Source of the DNA: Bacteroidota bacterium
Lineage (GTDB): Bacteria > Bacteroidota > Bacteroidia > Flavobacteriales_E > Vicingaceae
NCBI GenBank assembly: GCA_016183805.1
Contig: JACPDX010000013.1
Span: 62,001-126,000, forward strand
DNA: 64,000 nt
Direction of reading: 5' to 3'
Below the pieces are notes generated by a model. It worked only from the letters and a program-made list of their open reading frames with translations. It had not been told where the DNA came from and made no database searches. This document shows positions 54,704 to 64,000 of this stretch, in pieces. Every line of letters begins with the position of its first letter. Within the stretch, counting starts at the first letter, position 1. A program made the translations under genes and the position numbers.

Positions 54704-54731
54704 TTAACACAACCTTAACATAATCGTAAAG
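54704..54731 (+). promoter_or_regulatory. Pho-box-like direct repeats (11-bp period)
   Basis: TTAACAcaaccTTAACAtaatcGTAAAG upstream of 54792. Confidence 0.5.
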
Positions 54732-54791
54732 TTTAATTTCCATTTGCTAGCCGGAGTAGTTGTTACTTTGCAATGTAAAAAATTAAAGAAA

Positions 54792-55106
54792 ATGAAACAA
54801 CTTATTTTAATATTAGCACTGGCACTTACAACGGGGTTAGTTGCAAATAATAACGAAGGAAAAGCAAAATTAGCTGTAGTTAAAGGAAAAGTATTAGATA
54901 ACCAAGAATCGCTAACCGGCGTTAAAGTAATGGTTGATAATGTTCCTACTACAGTTTATACCGATTTTGACGGAAACTTTTTCATAAACAACCTAACTAT
55001 TGGTAAACATACCTTAAGTTTTAGTTTGGTTGCTTACGAAAGTAAAGTTATCGAAATTGATGTAACCGCATCTCAAAACATTGAAGTTAAACTAGATTCA
55101 AAATAA
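54792..55106 (+). CDS. Carboxypeptidase-regulatory-like domain protein (small, secreted)
   Basis: Signal MKQLILILALALTTGLVA; VKGKVLDNQESLTGVKVMVDNVPTTVYTDFDGNFFINNLTIGKHTLSFS; start corrected inward. Confidence 0.85.
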   Translation: MKQLILILALALTTGLVANNNEGKAKLAVVKGKVLDNQESLTGVKVMVDNVPTTVYTDFDGNFFINNLTIGKHTLSFSLVAYESKVIEIDVTASQNIEVKLDSK

Positions 55107-55209: not shown

Positions 55210-55674
55210 ATGAAAAGGTTTTTTTTATTTGCATCATTCATTATTCCTTCACTATTATTTTCACAAAACATAACCAACAAAGAAGGTGTTTTTGTAAATA
55301 ATACTGGTGAAAAATATTCCGGAAACTTAGTTTCTTATTTCGAAAACGGAAATAAAGAATACGTTTATGAAATAAAAAATGGAATTCAAAATGGAACAGC
55401 AGAGTTTTATTATTCTTCAGGAAAGATAATGGAAAAAGGTGTTTTTAAGAATGGATTAAAACATGGCAATTGGCAAAAATGGTCGGAACAAGGACAAAAA
55501 CTGGCAGAAGCCAACTATTCGAATGGCGAAAAAGATGGTTTGTGGTTAATTTTTGACGAAAATGGTACAAAACGTTACGAAATGCATTATAGTAATGGAA
55601 AGCGAACCGGAGTTTGGAAAAGTTGGGACGAAAAAGGTATTGAAACCGAATCAAAAGACTATACTTCTGGGTAG
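55210..55674 (+). CDS. MORN/YwqK-like repeat protein
   Basis: Repeats GEKDGLWLIFDENGTKRYEMHYSNGKRTGVWKSWDEKG. Confidence 0.85.
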   Translation: MKRFFLFASFIIPSLLFSQNITNKEGVFVNNTGEKYSGNLVSYFENGNKEYVYEIKNGIQNGTAEFYYSSGKIMEKGVFKNGLKHGNWQKWSEQGQKLAEANYSNGEKDGLWLIFDENGTKRYEMHYSNGKRTGVWKSWDEKGIETESKDYTSG

Positions 55675-55825: not shown

Positions 55826-55853
55826 TTAATACAACCTTAACCTTTAGTTAACC
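55826..55853 (+). promoter_or_regulatory. Pho-box-like triple direct repeat
   Basis: TTAATAcaaccTTAACCtttagTTAACC, exact 11-bp period. Confidence 0.55.
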
Positions 55854-55903
55854 GATGCTAGGCGTTTGCAAAAGTAACTTTCTGCTTTAATTAGTAGAAA
55901 AAA

Positions 55904-56584
55904 ATGCAGTCAAAAATAGTTGTTGTTTCAAGATTTCAGAGCGATTTAGGTGATTTAAAAAAATTTCTTTTAAAAGAAGGTTTTGAGGTTATTCCCATTA
56001 TCGAAATTAACTCGACAAATATAGAGTTAATAAACAATCTTGCTCCCCAAATCGTTTTTTTAGAAATGGATATGGGAAATTTTGATGGTATTGAAATTTG
56101 TCATCAATTAAAAATTGAAAAAAAAATTAATGGTTTTGTTGTCATCAGCTCTACACTGCCCGAAGAATATATTCAAATAGAGGCTTATAAGGCCGGTGCT
56201 GATGATTATATTGTTAAACCCATTAGTAATCGGTTATTGTTGAGGAAACTTAAAGCATTAATTAAGCGTACACCAAAAGCACAAATGAGTGCTAAAAATA
56301 ATCGGATATCATTTAAAGATATTGTTATTGACCGAGAAAGTTATAGCATTTTACGGGGAGTTGAAAAGATTGAGTTACCCAAAAAAGAATTCGAATTACT
56401 CTATTTATTGTTTAACAATCCTCAAAAAACTTTCACCCGTAGCGAAATTTACAAATCGGTGTGGGACAATGTAGATAACTACAACCCAAGAATTATTGAT
56501 GTGCATATTCGAAAAATTCGAGAAAAAATAGGAAATGCATTAATCAGCACAGTAAAAGGTGTCGGCTACCAATTGGCTGTGTAA
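55904..56584 (+). CDS. OmpR/PhoB-type response regulator with atypical receiver
   Basis: C-terminal winged helix PKKEFELLYLLFNNPQKTFTRSEIYKSVW...VKGVGYQLAV; receiver FLEMDMGNFDG (Glu at phospho-acceptor), N-terminal VVSRFQSD in place of the acidic pair. Confidence 0.9.
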   Translation: MQSKIVVVSRFQSDLGDLKKFLLKEGFEVIPIIEINSTNIELINNLAPQIVFLEMDMGNFDGIEICHQLKIEKKINGFVVISSTLPEEYIQIEAYKAGADDYIVKPISNRLLLRKLKALIKRTPKAQMSAKNNRISFKDIVIDRESYSILRGVEKIELPKKEFELLYLLFNNPQKTFTRSEIYKSVWDNVDNYNPRIIDVHIRKIREKIGNALISTVKGVGYQLAV

Positions 56585-56624: not shown

Positions 56625-59477
56625 TTATTTAAGGGTATATGAATAACTAAATCCAAAAAATCTTCCTTCGGTGTAAGAAGAAAATATCTCGTCGTTACCC
56701 TGAAAAGAACTGTAAATTCGTTGGCGTTTTTGGTTTAAGACGTTATTTACACTAAAGCTGATTTTGTGTCTTTTTTCTGCTCCTATTCCTTTTGTAATTC
56801 GCAAACCTAAATCATGAAAAGCTTTGTCGTAAACATCAGGAATTCTACCTAAACCAACTATAGCTAAACTCTTTCCTTGCACGTTGTAATTTAAACTTAC
56901 ATCCCAACCGTTATCAACATGAGTATAGTTAAAGTAAGAATTAACTAAAAAAGGAGCTTGTCCTTGAAAAGCCCTGGTTTTGCTAATGGTTTGTCCAGAA
57001 CGAGCTTCAGCAACACGGGCTTTGTATTCAATTTCACTCATTTCAACTTCCGATTTTACAAAAGTTACGTTACCTCCAACAGAATAGTTTTTTAGTTTTT
57101 CTGAGATAAAATCAAGGCTTTTACGCACCTCAAATTCTACTCCTAAAACCGAAGCATTATCAATGTTTCTAGGAATAATGTTGTCGGCACTGGTTGCGTT
57201 ATACGACACTACCTCTATTGGGTTAATAAATGTTTTGTAAAATCCACTAATAGAAACCAAATCGGCAGACTGAAAAAACTTTTCAAAACGTAAATCGTAG
57301 TTGTTTACATAAGTTTGAACCAAGTCTAAGTTTCCAAGAAAAGTAATTTGTGTTACCGCATCGTAAATTTGTGCTCCCGATTTTTCTTTAAACGAAGGTC
57401 TTGCCAAGGTTCTGCTAAAGTTAGCTCTTGCATTAAAATCTTTAAACAAATTATAAATCATACCTAACGATGGCAACACATCCAGTTCATCCAACACCAC
57501 CCTATCGTCAAACTTATCTAATTTTGGGTCGATAATGGTTTGTCTTTCTCCTGTATATCGCATCTCTGATTTTTCAACTCTTGCACCATAAATTATTTTA
57601 AACGAACTGTCAATGGGCAATTCGTTCATCAAGTATCCTGCAATAACTGTTTGAGTTGAGGTATAAATGTTTGAAGAATCTATTTGTCCGATTGGGTAAA
57701 TACCAGTGAAAGTTTTTGGCGAATTTGCTGCACTAAACAAATATTCGTTAGTAAAAGGTTGGTTCGGGTCGCCCGAATAATCCATTTTTCCAATATTTCT
57801 AAAATTAAATTCAACCACATCAAAATTTCTGTTTTTATACGTGTAGGCTATACCTGTTTTTAAGGTGCTTTTTAAACCCGACCACTGGTTAAAATCCCAT
57901 TTTAAATCGGCTTTAGCATTTAAGTTTACTTCCTCTAAGTTTCTAAAAGCTCTATTGATTAAAGCCCCTTCACCATTTGCAAATGTATATTTTCCATCAG
58001 GAGTAATGTTAAAAATTGTTTGGCGTAAATCGGGTTCTTTGTTTAAAGCTAATGATGGAGAAATGGCTGTTTTTAATTCTAGTTTTTTATTAAACTGATG
58101 TTTTGCAGCTAACAACACGTTAGAAATACTTCGTTGATTGTAATAAAGAGTTGTTTTATCTAATGTTACTAGGTTATCCGAGAAATCGGTATTTTTTTGC
58201 AACACTTTCGATGCTGTTTTTATACCATTTTGGGTGTGGAAAAAGGTTAATGAATATTTACTTTTGGCTCTTTTTACAGAAAAACTAGCCAACCCATTCC
58301 ACAATACTTCTTGTCTTCCAATCTCTCCTGTGTTAGTTTCAAGAGCTTCTAAATTATATTTTGTAATCGTATCACTGTTTTGGAAAGTATTAAATTCCCA
58401 ATCTCTATAGTGTGTGTATTTCATGCTGTAACCCAAAGAAACCACATAACCATAAGTGGTTTTCTCTCGTTCATGTTGGTTACCATAACTCAAACTGTAA
58501 TTTTGATTCAATAAACTACTTCCTCTTATGGAAGCCATTTCGGTATCGAACGATTTGGTAACACGTTCTAAAATAACATCATTTTGAGTAGTAATTAACG
58601 GACGAGGAATAACTGTTTTAGGATTTATGGGATTGTATCTATCTCCTGCACCGTTTGCCCATAAATCAGCTGCTGAACCACTAAAGGTTAAGAAATCGTT
58701 TTTAAAATGCATGTCAGGATTGTAAGTAAAAGAAGATGAAAAACTTAAAATTCTGCTTTCAGGAAAATCTTTGGTAACAATATCTACCATACCACCGGTG
58801 AAATCGCCCGGAAGGTCAGGGGTAAATGTTTTATAAACCACAATGTTGTCCACCACGTTGGTCGGGAAAATATCCACCTGAACAGAGTTTCTGTCGGGGT
58901 CTAATCCGGGGATGGTAATACCGTTTAAAATGGTTTTGGTATAGCGGTCGCCCAATCCTCTAACATAAACATCCTTTCCTCCTTGAATAGAAACTCCGGT
59001 TACTCTTTTTAAAGCTCCAGCAGCAGAGTTGTCGCCTGTTCTTGCAAAAGTTTGTGCAGAAATACCATCAACCAAATTCACCGATTTTTGTTTAATTGTT
59101 GATATGGCAGCTTCATTGTTTTTAATTTGTGTAGCTGTTAATTCAAACGTTTCTCCGGTAATGGCTTGGTCTTTCATTCTGATGTTAGTTACAGTAACAC
59201 CATCGGCTTTTACAGTAACACCGGAAATTTTTTGTGTAGCAAACGATACATAAGATGAAATCAAGTTATAAGTTCCAGGTTCTGTTGTAATAGAAAAATT
59301 TCCATCAAAATCAGTAATGCTTCCATTTGTTGTACCTTCAATAATAACACTACAACCAATCAATGGCTGACCAGTCGCGTTTTCAATAATTGTTCCTCTT
59401 ATCTTTCCTTTTTGAGCACTTAAACTAATTGAAATACTTAATAAAAGCAAGATGCTTGTTATACTTTTGAAATCCAT
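56625..59477 (-). CDS. TonB-dependent receptor with N-terminal carboxypeptidase-like domain
   Basis: GKIRGTIIENATGQPLIGCSVIIEGTTNGSITDFDGNFSI; DVYVRGLGDRYTKTILNGITIPGLDPDRNSVQVDIFPTNVVDNIVVYKTFTPDLPGDFTGGMVDI; C-terminal beta-barrel. Confidence 0.94.
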   Translation of the reverse strand: MDFKSITSILLLLSISISLSAQKGKIRGTIIENATGQPLIGCSVIIEGTTNGSITDFDGNFSITTEPGTYNLISSYVSFATQKISGVTVKADGVTVTNIRMKDQAITGETFELTATQIKNNEAAISTIKQKSVNLVDGISAQTFARTGDNSAAGALKRVTGVSIQGGKDVYVRGLGDRYTKTILNGITIPGLDPDRNSVQVDIFPTNVVDNIVVYKTFTPDLPGDFTGGMVDIVTKDFPESRILSFSSSFTYNPDMHFKNDFLTFSGSAADLWANGAGDRYNPINPKTVIPRPLITTQNDVILERVTKSFDTEMASIRGSSLLNQNYSLSYGNQHEREKTTYGYVVSLGYSMKYTHYRDWEFNTFQNSDTITKYNLEALETNTGEIGRQEVLWNGLASFSVKRAKSKYSLTFFHTQNGIKTASKVLQKNTDFSDNLVTLDKTTLYYNQRSISNVLLAAKHQFNKKLELKTAISPSLALNKEPDLRQTIFNITPDGKYTFANGEGALINRAFRNLEEVNLNAKADLKWDFNQWSGLKSTLKTGIAYTYKNRNFDVVEFNFRNIGKMDYSGDPNQPFTNEYLFSAANSPKTFTGIYPIGQIDSSNIYTSTQTVIAGYLMNELPIDSSFKIIYGARVEKSEMRYTGERQTIIDPKLDKFDDRVVLDELDVLPSLGMIYNLFKDFNARANFSRTLARPSFKEKSGAQIYDAVTQITFLGNLDLVQTYVNNYDLRFEKFFQSADLVSISGFYKTFINPIEVVSYNATSADNIIPRNIDNASVLGVEFEVRKSLDFISEKLKNYSVGGNVTFVKSEVEMSEIEYKARVAEARSGQTISKTRAFQGQAPFLVNSYFNYTHVDNGWDVSLNYNVQGKSLAIVGLGRIPDVYDKAFHDLGLRITKGIGAEKRHKISFSVNNVLNQKRQRIYSSFQGNDEIFSSYTEGRFFGFSYSYTLK

Positions 59478-59579: not shown

Positions 59580-60863
59580 TTATTGGATGTTAACAGCTAT
59601 CGGGCTAAATTGACCGGTTCTTCCGGCAAAAGTCCAACCTACAAATTGTGTTGGATCAAAACCATTTGTTAAACCAGAACCAATGTTATTGTTATTTACA
59701 AAATTACTTTCATCATATCCAGCTTGATCTGATTTAAATACTCCTGCAAGAGCACTGGTATTTAATGCGTTGTTGTTAAAAGTAAGTGTGGAAGAACCTG
59801 TTCCTATATAATTATTGTATGCATCAGCACCATTTACAACGAATCTTGCTGCAGCATTAAAATTGGTAAAATAACAGTTTTGTAAGTTTCCTTGAGCTTT
59901 AGATTTAAATACTGCATAATCACAAGTTAAGTTCGCAGCATTACCAACAATATATCCTTTAGTAAAAGTAAATTGACCTATTGCATTCAAAGAGCCTTCC
60001 GGACCATCAATTTCAAAAGCATCACCTTCTTGGTTTTCACCAGCAATAACCACAAAGTTGCTAATAGTTCCTTTAAAAGCTTGGTCAACATCATAACTAT
60101 CATCATCAATTTTAACAACAATTAAATCAGATGCGTTTACAGAACCACCAAAAAACTCAATACCGTCATCAAGATTACCAACAATCTCAATATGATTGAT
60201 TGTTGTTCCGCTACCTACACCACCTAAAGTTAATCCGTTAAGTTCATTACCCGCACCAATAATAACCCCGCCATGTCTAATAGAAACATATTGTAATTCT
60301 CCTGAATTATCTGCATCATCAGAACCACCATAAGTTGTTCCGATTGTTCCTGCCGGAATACCTTCAATTTCTGCTGTTCCGCCAGTTGGAGTTGAACAAG
60401 AAGCATCTCCTAAGATAACTACACCACCCCATAAACCCTTGTGATTAACGGTTAAGTTTGGACTAGCAATTTGGCCAGGAACAATTTGATCGTCAGAAGA
60501 AGTAAAGATAATTGGAGTACTTGCTGTTCCGATTGCATGAATTTTTGCACCAACACCAATAACTAATACTGCTGCATTTGCATCAGAACCCGGCTTCCCT
60601 TTTATTACTGTTCCTGCTTCAATAGTTAATTCTGCTGGGGCAGTAACAATAACTCTACCATCTAAATAAACAATTTTATCTTTTGTCCAAGTGGTGTTAG
60701 AAGTAATATTTCCACTAACCGTAAGTGATGGAAAAGAGGTATCAGGAGTTGGTACCGGAGTTTCAACAATTGGATCGGTTGATTTATCTTTAGAACAAGA
60801 TGTGAAGAATGTGGTTGCACCTAACATAATAATGGATGCAATTAATAGTTGTTTTGTTTTCAT
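59580..60863 (-). CDS. Beta-helix-like lipoprotein
   Basis: Lipobox FFTSCSKD; VSGNITSNTTWTKDKIVYLDGRVIVTAPAELTIEAGTVIKG; ELNGLTLGGVGSGTTINHIEIVGNLDDGIEFFGGSVNASDLIV. Confidence 0.82.
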   Translation of the reverse strand: MKTKQLLIASIIMLGATTFFTSCSKDKSTDPIVETPVPTPDTSFPSLTVSGNITSNTTWTKDKIVYLDGRVIVTAPAELTIEAGTVIKGKPGSDANAAVLVIGVGAKIHAIGTASTPIIFTSSDDQIVPGQIASPNLTVNHKGLWGGVVILGDASCSTPTGGTAEIEGIPAGTIGTTYGGSDDADNSGELQYVSIRHGGVIIGAGNELNGLTLGGVGSGTTINHIEIVGNLDDGIEFFGGSVNASDLIVVKIDDDSYDVDQAFKGTISNFVVIAGENQEGDAFEIDGPEGSLNAIGQFTFTKGYIVGNAANLTCDYAVFKSKAQGNLQNCYFTNFNAAARFVVNGADAYNNYIGTGSSTLTFNNNALNTSALAGVFKSDQAGYDESNFVNNNNIGSGLTNGFDPTQFVGWTFAGRTGQFSPIAVNIQ

Positions 60864-60979: not shown

Positions 60980-61034
60980 TTATCATAATGAGTTATGCTA
61001 ATAAAAAACTGATTAGAAGACTCACTACCAAGTG

Positions 61035-61062
61035 ATAATTACAATTTAATATTAAGTTAACA
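61035..61062 (+). promoter_or_regulatory. Pho-box-like direct repeats upstream of the response regulator gene
   Basis: ATAATTacaatTTAATAttaagTTAACA, 11-bp period. Confidence 0.45.
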
Positions 61063-61118: not shown

Positions 61119-61784
61119 ATGGAAAAGATTTTATTGGTTGATGACGAAAATGATATTTTAGAATTTGTTAGTTATAATTTATCTAAAGAAGGGTTTCAGG
61201 TAATCACCTGTAATAATGGAAAAGAAGCCATACAACTCGCCCAAAAAGAAAACCCCGATTTAATTATCCTTGATGTGATGATGCCTGAAATGGATGGTAT
61301 TGAAACTTGTCATGAATTAAGGAGTATTGATAAATTAAAAGACACCTTAATTATTTTCTTAAGTGCAAGAGGTGAAGATTATTCGCAGGTGGCAGGATTT
61401 GATGCCGGTGCTGACGATTACATTCCAAAACCCATCAAACCACGTTTATTGGTAAGCCGCGTAAAAGCCATTTTAAGAAGAAAAGGTGGAAAAGTAGAAG
61501 CCGAAGAAACCCATTCCGGAATAAGAATTGATAGAGAAAAATACCTGATTTTTAAAGACAATAAGGAATTTTCACTACCAAAAAAAGAATTTGAATTGTT
61601 GGCATTACTTTTTTCTAAACCCGGTAAAGTTTTTACTCGCGAAATTATTTTGGACAATGTGTGGGGAGGCGATGTGGTAGTTGGCGACAGGACTATTGAT
61701 GTACACATTAGAAAATTACGTGAAAAATTAGGCGACCAATACATAAAAACAATTAAAGGTGTAGGATACAAGTTTGAGGTTTGA
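61119..61784 (+). CDS. PhoB/OmpR-type response regulator (canonical receiver)
   Basis: KILLVDDENDIL; LIILDVMMPEMDGIETC; winged helix VGDRTIDVHIRKLREKLGDQYIKTIKGVGYKFEV. Confidence 0.94.
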   Translation: MEKILLVDDENDILEFVSYNLSKEGFQVITCNNGKEAIQLAQKENPDLIILDVMMPEMDGIETCHELRSIDKLKDTLIIFLSARGEDYSQVAGFDAGADDYIPKPIKPRLLVSRVKAILRRKGGKVEAEETHSGIRIDREKYLIFKDNKEFSLPKKEFELLALLFSKPGKVFTREIILDNVWGGDVVVGDRTIDVHIRKLREKLGDQYIKTIKGVGYKFEV

Positions 61785-61786
61785 AG

Positions 61787-61881
61787 AGCCTCCCCAACCC
61801 TTCCGAAGGAGGGGCTACGTAGAGTAGCGAAGACGGAAGTCGTTTATGAGTGTTAGCTTCCCCTCTAAAAGGAAGGGTGGT
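61787..61881. repeat. Composite nested intergenic repeat
   Basis: agcctccccaacccttccgaaggaggggct ... gaagacggaagtc ... cccctctaaaaggaagggtgg. Confidence 0.7.
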
Positions 61882-61944
61882 TAGAAGTGTGTTTTTGAAT
61901 ACCGAAGAATAAAACAAATGTTGGAAATGAATAATGAATGTTTC

Positions 61945-61974
61945 TTCGGTCTTCCGACTTCGGACTTCCGTCTT
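61945..61974. repeat. GAAGTC/CGGAAGAC family copy
   Basis: cttcggtcttccgacttcggacttccgtctt. Confidence 0.75.
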
Positions 61975-62017
61975 TATAAACTTTTTATTCTTACTTTTAG
62001 GGTTTATTAAACACTAC

Positions 62018-64000
62018 ATGTCAAAACACAAAAAAAAACCAAACTCTGGTGGTTTCAAAGCCAACTTGATACAACAAATTATCACTATTTTTGATAAAAA
62101 TCCTACTCAAACCTTTAACTACAAGCAACTTAGTCAAGCCTTTGGCTTTTCGGATATTGCTAACAAAAAACTAGTAACCATTGTTTTGGAAGAACTCACG
62201 AATCAAGGAAAGTTACGTGAACTAAAAAGAGGTTCTTACAAACTGAATTCATCCAAAGCATTAATTGAAGGAACTGTTGACATGACTGCCAGAGGTGCTG
62301 CTTATGTAATTGTTCCAGATAGTGACCAAGATATTTATATCGATCCAAAAAATACCGGAAACGCTTTGCATGGCGACAAGGTAAAAGTGAATGTTTTTTA
62401 CAGTAAAACCAATAAAAAACCAGAAGGTGAAATTATTGAAGTAACCGAACGTGCCAAAACCGAGTTCGTTGGAATTGTAGAAAAATCGAAAAACTTTGCT
62501 TTTATAGTTACCAGCGATCAACGAATGCCAGTCGATATTTTTGTCCCTTTAGATAAAATGAAAGGAGCTAAAAATGGCGAAAAAGTGGTGGCTAAAATCA
62601 CCGAATGGCCCGCCGATAAAAAAAATCCGTTTGGTATCATTACCCAAGTGTTGGGTATGCCCGGTGAACACGATACTGAAATGCACGCCATTTTAGCGGA
62701 ATATGGTTTACCTTACGAATTCCCTGAAAAAGTGGAGCAAGATGCTACAAAATTGAACATCGAAATTGATGTGAAAGAAATTAAAAAACGTAGAGATTTT
62801 AGAGCGGTAACAACTTTTACGATTGACCCAGCAGATGCCAAAGATTTTGATGATGCTTTGTCCATCAAGAAATTGGCAAACGGCAATTGGGAAATCGGTA
62901 TTCATATTGCTGATGTTTCACACTACGTTGTACCAGGAACACTGCTCGACAAGGAAGCTTTAAACAGAGCAACTTCTGTTTATTTGGTGGATAGAGTTGT
63001 ACCTATGTTGCCCGAAGTATTGTCAAACAATGCATGTTCATTACGACCCCAAGAAACCAAATTGTGTTTTTCGGCAGTATTTGAACTCACCGAAGAAGCA
63101 GAACTTAAAAACGAATGGTTTGGGCGAACAGTAATTTTTTCTGATCGAAGATTTTCGTACGAAGAAGCTCAAGAACGTATAGAAACCAAAGAAGGAGATT
63201 TTGCTGAAGAAATTTTGCAAATGGATAAATTGGCCAAGATTTTACGAAAAGAACGTTTTAAAAAGGGTTCGATTGCTTTTGATAGAATTGAAGTAAAATT
63301 CAATTTAGATGAACATGGAAATCCTGTAGGAATATTTTTTAAAGAAAGCAAAGACTCCAACAAACTGATTGAAGAGTTTATGTTGCTTGCCAACAAAAAA
63401 GTTGCCGAATTTATTGGAAAACCATCCAAAAACAAAGCAGCTAAAACGTTTGTTTACCGTATTCACGATGAACCAAATCAAGAAAAGTTGCTTACACTTT
63501 CGAACTTTGTAAAAACATTTGGATACAAACTGGAAATTGATCAGGCAAATGTTACCAAATCGTTAAATGCATTAATGGCAGACGTACATGGTAAAGCAGA
63601 AGAAAATTTGATTGAACAGTTGGCGATAAGAACCATGGCAAAAGCCACCTATTCGACTCATAATATTGGTCATTATGGGTTGTCTTTTCCATTTTATTCG
63701 CATTTTACATCACCCATTCGTCGTTATCCTGATGTTATTGCTCACCGTTTGTTACAGCATTATTTAGATGGCGGGGCATCTGTAAACGAAGAAGAAATTG
63801 AGGAGCAATGTAAACATTCATCAAAAATGGAAATTTTGGCTTCTGAGGCTGAAAGAGCATCTATCAAATACAAACAGGTTGAATATTTACAAGATAAAAT
63901 TGGCGAAGAATACGATGGTTTTATTTCCGGAGTAAGTGAGTGGGGAATTTATGTGGAGATTATGAGTGGTATGTGTGAAGGAATGGTAAAACTACGTGAT
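62018..64000 (+). CDS. rnr: Ribonuclease R, truncated by the window end (absent from the ORF track)
   Basis: Reads MSKHKKKPNSGGFKANLIQQIITIF...; RRDFRAVTTFTIDPADAKDFDDALSIKKL RNB motif; start of an S1 domain at the edge. Confidence 0.94.
   Translation, partial: MSKHKKKPNSGGFKANLIQQIITIFDKNPTQTFNYKQLSQAFGFSDIANKKLVTIVLEELTNQGKLRELKRGSYKLNSSKALIEGTVDMTARGAAYVIVPDSDQDIYIDPKNTGNALHGDKVKVNVFYSKTNKKPEGEIIEVTERAKTEFVGIVEKSKNFAFIVTSDQRMPVDIFVPLDKMKGAKNGEKVVAKITEWPADKKNPFGIITQVLGMPGEHDTEMHAILAEYGLPYEFPEKVEQDATKLNIEIDVKEIKKRRDFRAVTTFTIDPADAKDFDDALSIKKLANGNWEIGIHIADVSHYVVPGTLLDKEALNRATSVYLVDRVVPMLPEVLSNNACSLRPQETKLCFSAVFELTEEAELKNEWFGRTVIFSDRRFSYEEAQERIETKEGDFAEEILQMDKLAKILRKERFKKGSIAFDRIEVKFNLDEHGNPVGIFFKESKDSNKLIEEFMLLANKKVAEFIGKPSKNKAAKTFVYRIHDEPNQEKLLTLSNFVKTFGYKLEIDQANVTKSLNALMADVHGKAEENLIEQLAIRTMAKATYSTHNIGHYGLSFPFYSHFTSPIRRYPDVIAHRLLQHYLDGGASVNEEEIEEQCKHSSKMEILASEAERASIKYKQVEYLQDKIGEEYDGFISGVSEWGIYVEIMSGMCEGMVKLRD

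Follow-up and report, generated by a model that had tools for sequence, protein, structure and literature searches.

A PhoB-like regulator with a pseudo-receiver beside canonical PhoB in a putative phosphate regulon of Bacteroidota

Introduction

Of all bacterial receiver domains, several percent are pseudo-receivers. How they are activated and inactivated is described as a mystery in a 2025 review (PMC12632262). Among the closest described cases is ChxR, which has been reported to dimerise without phosphorylation and to bind direct repeats (PMC3960148, PMC4395418). Expression of CmrT is controlled by its two-component system (TCS) (PMC12632262). With respect to phosphate regulation, the PhoBR locus of Flavobacterium johnsoniae (Fjoh_0542-0546) encodes OprP, PhoR, PhoB, a TonB receptor and lipoprotein FII, and levels of the last three increase when phosphate is low (PMC8115612).

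Here, we analyze a PhoB-like regulator, which we call pseudo-PhoB, encoded within a 64-kb stretch of Bacteroidota DNA (the window) that spans positions 62001-126000 of contig C15 in a 3.47 Mb draft genome (the host genome). A literature search, with subscription journals mostly outside its coverage, returned no known PhoB paralogue of this kind. We compare pseudo-PhoB with the regulator encoded a few genes away and with its orthologues, describe its promoter and neighbors, and weigh what it may do in the phosphate response.

Results

Two regulator genes and one codon are central to the comparison:

55904-56584, plus strand: pseudo-PhoB, an OmpR/PhoB-type regulator with a pseudo-receiver (226 aa, ATG start; S9-R10, E54 and T84, with S83, Y102 and K105 kept)
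56063-56065, plus strand: codon for Glu54 (GAA) at the phospho-acceptor position, which is Asp in 20 of 24 close orthologues
61119-61784, plus strand: canonical PhoB (D8, D9, D52, S82, A83, Y101, K104; loop WGGDVVVGDR), with PhoR 3.2 kb downstream, beyond the window

Pseudo-PhoB has the OmpR/PhoB architecture. Response_reg (PF00072, 48.9 bits) and Trans_reg_C (PF00486, 76 bits) both exceed their Pfam cut-offs of 30.2 and 26.2, and the structure model matches OmpR/PhoB structures. The corresponding scores of the neighbor are 104.1 bits for the receiver and 88.7 bits for Trans_reg_C. In alignment to this neighbor, S9/R10 replace the acidic pair D8/D9 and E54 replaces D52; the switch Thr/Ser (S83), the switch Tyr (Y102) and the Lys (K105) are kept. 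An original prediction, made from the DNA letters, had reported Glu at the phospho-acceptor, Ser-Arg for the acidic pair and an intact Lys, and the open reading frame reads exactly so. It did not mention a further change, that of the small T+1 residue from Ala to Thr84. A small residue at T+1 leaves the phosphorylation site accessible. Of the elements of a phosphorylatable site (D-D, D, T/S, K and small T+1), only S83 and K105 remain in pseudo-PhoB. By definition the protein is both a pseudo-receiver (PsR) and an aspartate-less receiver (ALR), while most of its orthologues are PsR and not ALR, since they keep the acceptor Asp. It scores below the NCBIfam PhoB cut-offs (125.9 versus 296.2 bits for TIGR02154, 121.9 versus 270 bits for NF053854), as does the product of 61119-61784 (221.8 and 209.7 bits, respectively). 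In the structure model the receiver and the winged helix are folded normally (pLDDT 86.7), but the pTM is 0.56 and the domain arrangement is not reliable. A phage origin was considered and rejected: phage matches fell below 60% identity and were to generic PhoB-type regulators.

Searches of 100 relatives and 46 genomes of the family yielded 81 PhoB-like regulators for alignment and tree building. A degenerate group of 33 proteins from 32 genomes separates from the rest, with branch support of 100/99 in an earlier tree of 56 proteins and 91 in a quick, larger tree. The full D-D-D-K set is present in 0/33 of these proteins versus 46/46 canonical ones, and we reject a lone mutation or sequencing error as the source of the altered site. 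Both the T+1 Ala and the D+4 Pro are lost in all 33. Subclade A (n=24), which includes the window protein, has lost the acidic pair in every member and kept the Lys in 19; its acceptor is Asp in 20 proteins and Glu in four, one from the window and the others from three genomes that all belong to a single further genus. The sister group, subclade B (n=9), has Pro, Ser or Ala at the acceptor, has lost the Lys in 9/9 and retains part of the acidic pair. Because no member has a full phosphorylation site and the small T+1 residue is gone throughout, the group is best described as a lineage-wide pseudo-receiver, not a Glu-locked receiver. Its members are pseudo-receivers as Bourret and colleagues use the term (PMC12632262), and Glu at the acceptor is best regarded as a late, lineage-specific state and not the switch. 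The alignment of orthologues proposed in the original prediction has a mixed outcome, in that Glu is not conserved but none of the 33 proteins has the full site. The broader suggestion of a phosphorylation-independent PhoB paralogue fares better, with an acidic pocket lost or broken across the clade.

Rough Nei-Gojobori estimates for close pairs, based on small counts, give omega values of about 0.07-0.27 for the degenerate receiver where measurable, and 0-0.2, mostly near 0.03, for the canonical receiver. By the same rough measure, the DNA-binding domain of the degenerate proteins is likewise under purifying selection. Pseudo-PhoB appears to evolve faster than PhoB yet to be constrained. Searches of the 46 family genomes detected no pseudo-receiver gene in 13, some of them incomplete, so the system can apparently work without one. 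One draft bin (G045; L071, L072, L188) holds two complete pseudo-PhoB/PhoB loci along with a third PhoB-like copy that is broken by an in-gene TGA; these multiple copies may reflect mixed strains.

The genes that surround the two regulators are as follows:

54780-55106, plus strand: small secreted CarboxypepD_reg-like protein, a conserved neighbor with its own Pho box
55210-55674, plus strand: secreted MORN_2-repeat protein, conserved, immediately upstream of pseudo-PhoB
56625-59477, minus strand: TonB-dependent receptor (CarbopepD_reg_2 + Plug) of the phosphate locus, from Pfam and synteny
59580-60863, minus strand: large lipoprotein-type protein with no Pfam match, placed beside PhoB as 'lipoprotein FII' is in F. 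johnsoniae (PMC8115612)

Because the make-up of this locus is the same as that of the published F. johnsoniae PhoBR locus, we assign the product of 61119-61784 as PhoB by context. It has a canonical receiver, a cognate PhoR, and phosphate genes and Pho boxes around it. The original prediction had noted that neither regulator gene adjoins a histidine kinase, which is true inside the 64-kb window but not beyond it, where PhoR lies one gene from phoB. A kinase with HisKA and HATPase_c is encoded 994-2043 bp past the right end of the window (L147:4995-6044), behind RNase R, and is 69% identical to the PhoR found directly after phoB in another genome (G002). The RNase R gene separates phoB from phoR here (61785-64000; L147:1935-6044); most relatives have the two side by side.

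In the window's genus and in a large genus (g13), the genes for the CarboxypepD_reg-like protein, the MORN_2 protein and pseudo-PhoB are followed, in that order, by the TonB receptor and lipoprotein genes on the opposite strand, and then by those of PhoB and PhoR. Several genomes (e.g. L051, L063, L069) have Porin_O_P and an Na/Pi cotransporter-PhoU gene directly upstream, as identified with Pfam, and the subclade B genes are divergent from the Na/Pi cotransporter in 9/9 cases. The CarboxypepD_reg-like (54780-55106) and MORN_2 (55210-55674) proteins, both secreted and uncharacterised, travel with pseudo-PhoB. The phosphate porin and Na/Pi cotransporter of the host genome lie ~38-44 kb from pseudo-PhoB (C15:152000-166000, L209), and a Pho box precedes each.

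Four promoter elements were recognized in the window:

55826-55852, plus strand: Pho-box-like triple direct repeat TTAATACAACCTTAACCTTTAGTTAAC before pseudo-PhoB, with an 11-bp period and three TTAAY units
55875-55882, plus strand: Bacteroidota -7-like element TAACTTTC, separated from the box by 22 bp; in 16 orthologues its TA and TTT are invariant
54704-54730, plus strand: second Pho-box-like repeat, which precedes the small CarboxypepD_reg-like gene
61034-61060, minus strand: Pho-box-like repeat (13/15) between the lipoprotein gene and phoB

The box before pseudo-PhoB follows the pattern TTAAT-N6-TTAAC-N6-TTAAC. A comparison of 16 orthologues shows hardly any variation in the TTAAC core, in the spacing or in the TA..TTT of the -7 element. 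A three-unit box scoring at least 12/15 precedes 24/24 subclade A genes versus 20/486 other genes (Mann-Whitney p ~1e-17). The background is, if anything, too high an estimate, since at least one of its genes with a score of at least 13 is a phoB. The box is also enriched before the genes for Porin_O_P, the Na/Pi cotransporter, the TonB receptor, the lipoprotein, PhoB and the small CarboxypepD_reg protein; the same upstream scoring across relatives gives no enrichment for phoR. The only perfect three-unit match of the host genome lies upstream of Porin_O_P (C15:162104), and a match with one mismatch lies directly before the Na/Pi cotransporter (C15:156065). In one register, the porin box is spaced 21 bp from a TAnnTTTG element. 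The genome-wide count of three-unit repeats is not above control (21 versus 30 for the reversed control); the evidence for the box is therefore positional, upstream of phosphate genes, and not numerical. Nor is there an excess within the window of the two-unit TTAAC repeat with one mismatch (22 versus 17.4 in shuffles). The box is informative only in its three-unit form at a fixed distance.

The pseudo-PhoB gene carries the conserved box common to phosphate transport genes, which marks it as a putative member of the Pho regulon. Because the box overlies the -33 region, activation of the gene by PhoB is the likely reading. We suggest the repeat as a candidate Pho box for these Bacteroidota; a literature search found no description of a Bacteroidota Pho box. 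In 14/14 relatives scored, the small CarboxypepD_reg-like gene (54780-55106) has a Pho box of at least 12/15, and its product is for this reason probably a phosphate-starvation protein.

Two segments of the DNA-binding domain have diverged from PhoB to very different degrees:

56465-56488, plus strand: replaced transactivation loop DNVDNYNP (versus GGDVVVGD), the site of activation-defective mutations in E. coli PhoB (PMC3973317)
56489-56527, plus strand: recognition helix RIIDVHIRKIREK, nearly identical by alignment to RTIDVHIRKLREK of PhoB in the same genome

The loop between helices 2 and 3, which the original prediction left unmentioned, reads WDNVDNYNPR in pseudo-PhoB and WGGDVVVGDR in the product of 61119-61784. 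We scored retention on the 116 columns that are at least 90% conserved in canonical proteins. Recognition-helix columns are kept at 83% in subclade A and 89% in subclade B, and the remaining columns of the DNA-binding domain at 75% and 82%. The five conserved columns of the transactivation loop are kept at 2% and 22%, respectively (loop versus rest in A, p ~9e-5). For individual residues we use E. coli PhoB numbering, mapped through the conserved W..R(T)(I/V)DVHI motif of the E. coli sequence. Mutations W184R, G185R, V190M and D192G of E. coli PhoB, all in the loop, abolish activation (PMC3973317). The Trp matching W184 is kept in the pseudo-PhoB clade. The matching Gly and the matching Val are each found in 0/24 proteins of subclade A, and the matching Asp is lost in 22/24 (A) and 9/9 (B).

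Residues that match the base-contacting V197, R201 and R219 are in the canonical PhoB state, with two exceptions in subclade B at R219. The idea in the original prediction that the two regulators may share DNA sites agrees with the retention of the recognition helix, the DNA-contacting Val, the Lys/Arg and the wing Lys. The site bound by pseudo-PhoB may differ slightly from that of PhoB, because the equivalent of T194, a base-touching residue in PhoB, is Ile/Val in 22/24 proteins of subclade A; it is Thr in all of subclade B. Position 189, in the loop, has become a conserved Asn in 22/24 proteins of subclade A. The erased sigma-contact loop argues against simple PhoB-like activation. One caveat is that losing the loop of the E. 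coli type is no proof of lost activation, because the Bacteroidota sigma factor differs and a new contact via N189 is possible.

The alpha4-beta5-alpha5 face of the receiver is largely kept, including Asp100 and a basic residue at 114. In subclade A, D95 has become Lys in 20/24 proteins, which reverses the charge at one salt-bridge position of the interface, and K116 is no longer mostly Lys; in subclade B, both positions match PhoB. Newly conserved residues in subclade A are N189, K95 and E92, the Lys and Glu lying in helix 4. The charge-reversed D95 position appears to match E94 of ArcA, which has been tied to dimer specificity in E. coli (PMC2586830), and the reversal may change the dimer partners of pseudo-PhoB.

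Other Bacteroidota have regulators that bear these marks too (L221, L226, L228, L230/L231, L222, G050, G057, G065, G088, G096), and several of those outside the family adjoin PhoB-PhoR, MORN, lipoprotein or TonB receptor genes. Most other class-level loci examined have a single canonical PhoB, with no pseudo-PhoB close by. A mixed tree of 53 proteins has a 96/95 branch that separates every pseudo-receiver type from the canonical proteins. This makes a single origin of these types plausible, though long branches could pull them together. Second PhoB copies in two genomes, G050 (L298, 2790-3476) and G096 (L301, 5528-6214), have D-D-D-K intact and Asp at T+1, and their loops are altered to WGYEIVSANR and WGHEIVAKNR. 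These copies are possible intermediates toward the pseudo-receiver. Since D-D-D-K is intact in them while the loop is already changed and T+1 blocked, phosphorylation may have been lost later than the activation contact. A strongly diverged pseudo-PhoB (SKD, Leu at Thr/Ser) is encoded next to the lipoprotein and TonB receptor genes in G088 (L300, 11510-12211), with a canonical PhoB on the far side of those genes. At another locus (L226, 3200-5423), a Glu-acceptor pseudo-PhoB stands beside a 131-aa receiver-like ORF and a canonical PhoB ORF that is apparently late-starting or frameshifted.

Discussion

The model that we favor, and to which we give about an even chance of being right, is that pseudo-PhoB is a phosphorylation-independent, starvation-induced regulator that occupies Pho boxes and modulates, probably dampens, the output of PhoB. 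As part of this model, pseudo-PhoB would be an old PhoB paralogue kept inside the phosphate-starvation regulon. Phosphate starvation would cause PhoR-PhoB to switch the pseudo-PhoB gene on. The protein would dimerise without phosphorylation through its retained alpha4-beta5-alpha5 face, and the dimer would bind Pho boxes. Because pseudo-PhoB lacks the PhoB loop, it would not activate as PhoB does and would instead compete with phospho-PhoB, leaving the output dampened or reshaped. Feedback of this sort would be set by the amount of pseudo-PhoB and not by phosphorylation. We infer the direction, dampening; an anti-activator role is predicted from the kept helix and the lost loop.

It is also possible, though somewhat unlikely, that pseudo-PhoB binds Pho boxes and activates without phosphorylation, such that PhoB would only need to induce it for the response to be strengthened or prolonged. 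ChxR, an OmpR/PhoB-type regulator with a Glu acceptor, activates transcription without phosphorylation (PMC3960148, PMC4395418), and TCS-controlled expression of a constitutive pseudo-receiver, in a cascade of the CmrR/CmrT type, is an explicit model (PMC12632262). The position of the pseudo-PhoB gene behind a Pho box fits such a cascade as well. However, the loop by which PhoB contacts RNA polymerase is erased in both subclades, and the Glu is not conserved. The latter observation also bears on whether Glu54, as a phosphomimic, keeps the receiver locked in its active form and accounts functionally for the change, which we consider very improbable. Asp-to-Glu substitution can partly activate some regulators and is the commonest acceptor replacement in ALRs (PMC4395418, PMC12632262), and Lys105, Ser83 and Tyr102 are all kept. 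Yet Glu is found in just 4/24 close orthologues, the others having Asp without the acidic pair, and the sister group has Pro, Ser or Ala. Moreover, ChxR needs no Glu for DNA binding, and with Asp or Ala at this site it still binds DNA constitutively (PMC4395418). On both grounds, we set aside the view in the original prediction that Glu causes constitutive activity.

Another way in which pseudo-PhoB might act is by pairing with PhoB, shifting promoter choice or PhoB phosphorylation, as WhiI does with BldM (PMC4125116). The largely kept alpha4-beta5-alpha5 face, with Asp100 and the basic residue at 114, would allow this, particularly in subclade B, where the D95 and K116 positions are as in PhoB. 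In subclade A, by contrast, D95 is Lys in 20/24 proteins and K116 is no longer mostly Lys, and E. coli regulators whose residues at the ArcA E94/R115 positions form an unusual pair gave no cross-pairing (PMC2586830). We regard heterodimer formation as distinctly unlikely. Least credence goes to the idea that pseudo-PhoB is a PhoB duplicate under relaxed selection and on its way to being lost. Its faster evolution than PhoB, seen as long branches, the failure to find it in 13/46 family genomes and the occasional damaged copy (for example G045:C359, which has an internal stop, and one in G060 that is split) are what decay would produce. But reading frames are open throughout the clade, both domains are under purifying selection, and the promoter architecture is fixed, with conserved synteny and newly conserved residues (N189, K95, E92).

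On a broader scale, one ancient pseudo-PhoB family, spread over several Bacteroidota families and serving as a built-in competitor of PhoB, is a possibility that we raise tentatively. If true, the level of a starvation-induced decoy regulator would alone set the damping of the phosphate response in these regulons. The locus offers a natural paired experiment, comprising a pseudo-regulator, its canonical sister, a kinase and a DNA box common to both promoters. This paired set exists in many genomes, along with intermediate evolutionary states, and it allows sharp predictions as to whether a regulator with a pseudo-receiver stimulates or restrains the system from which it derives.

Like pseudo-PhoB, ChxR of Chlamydia trachomatis has the OmpR/PhoB architecture, a Glu acceptor and lost active-site residues. 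Unlike ChxR, which activates transcription and has no PhoBR locus, pseudo-PhoB has a canonical PhoB beside it, a Pho box and an erased loop. CmrT, of the Clostridioides difficile CmrRST system, is likewise a pseudo-receiver regulator encoded with a normal regulator and a kinase; unlike pseudo-PhoB, it is not described as a PhoB paralogue and is not concerned with phosphate. WhiI and BldM of Streptomyces are NarL/FixJ-type proteins. They resemble the present case in that an atypical regulator acts with another regulator (PMC4125116), and differ in that they act on developmental genes and their heterodimer has been shown. HP1043 (HsrA) of Helicobacter pylori and RitR of Streptococcus pneumoniae, both among the structural neighbors of the pseudo-PhoB model, are orphan, atypical OmpR/PhoB regulators too. 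Neither is known to have a canonical paralogue as its partner within one regulon. The PhoBR operon / PUSIV of F. johnsoniae matches the locus by gene order and type; unlike the locus described here, it has no pseudo-PhoB listed (PMC8115612). A conserved pseudo-PhoB within a phosphate regulon adds to the atypical response regulators already known.
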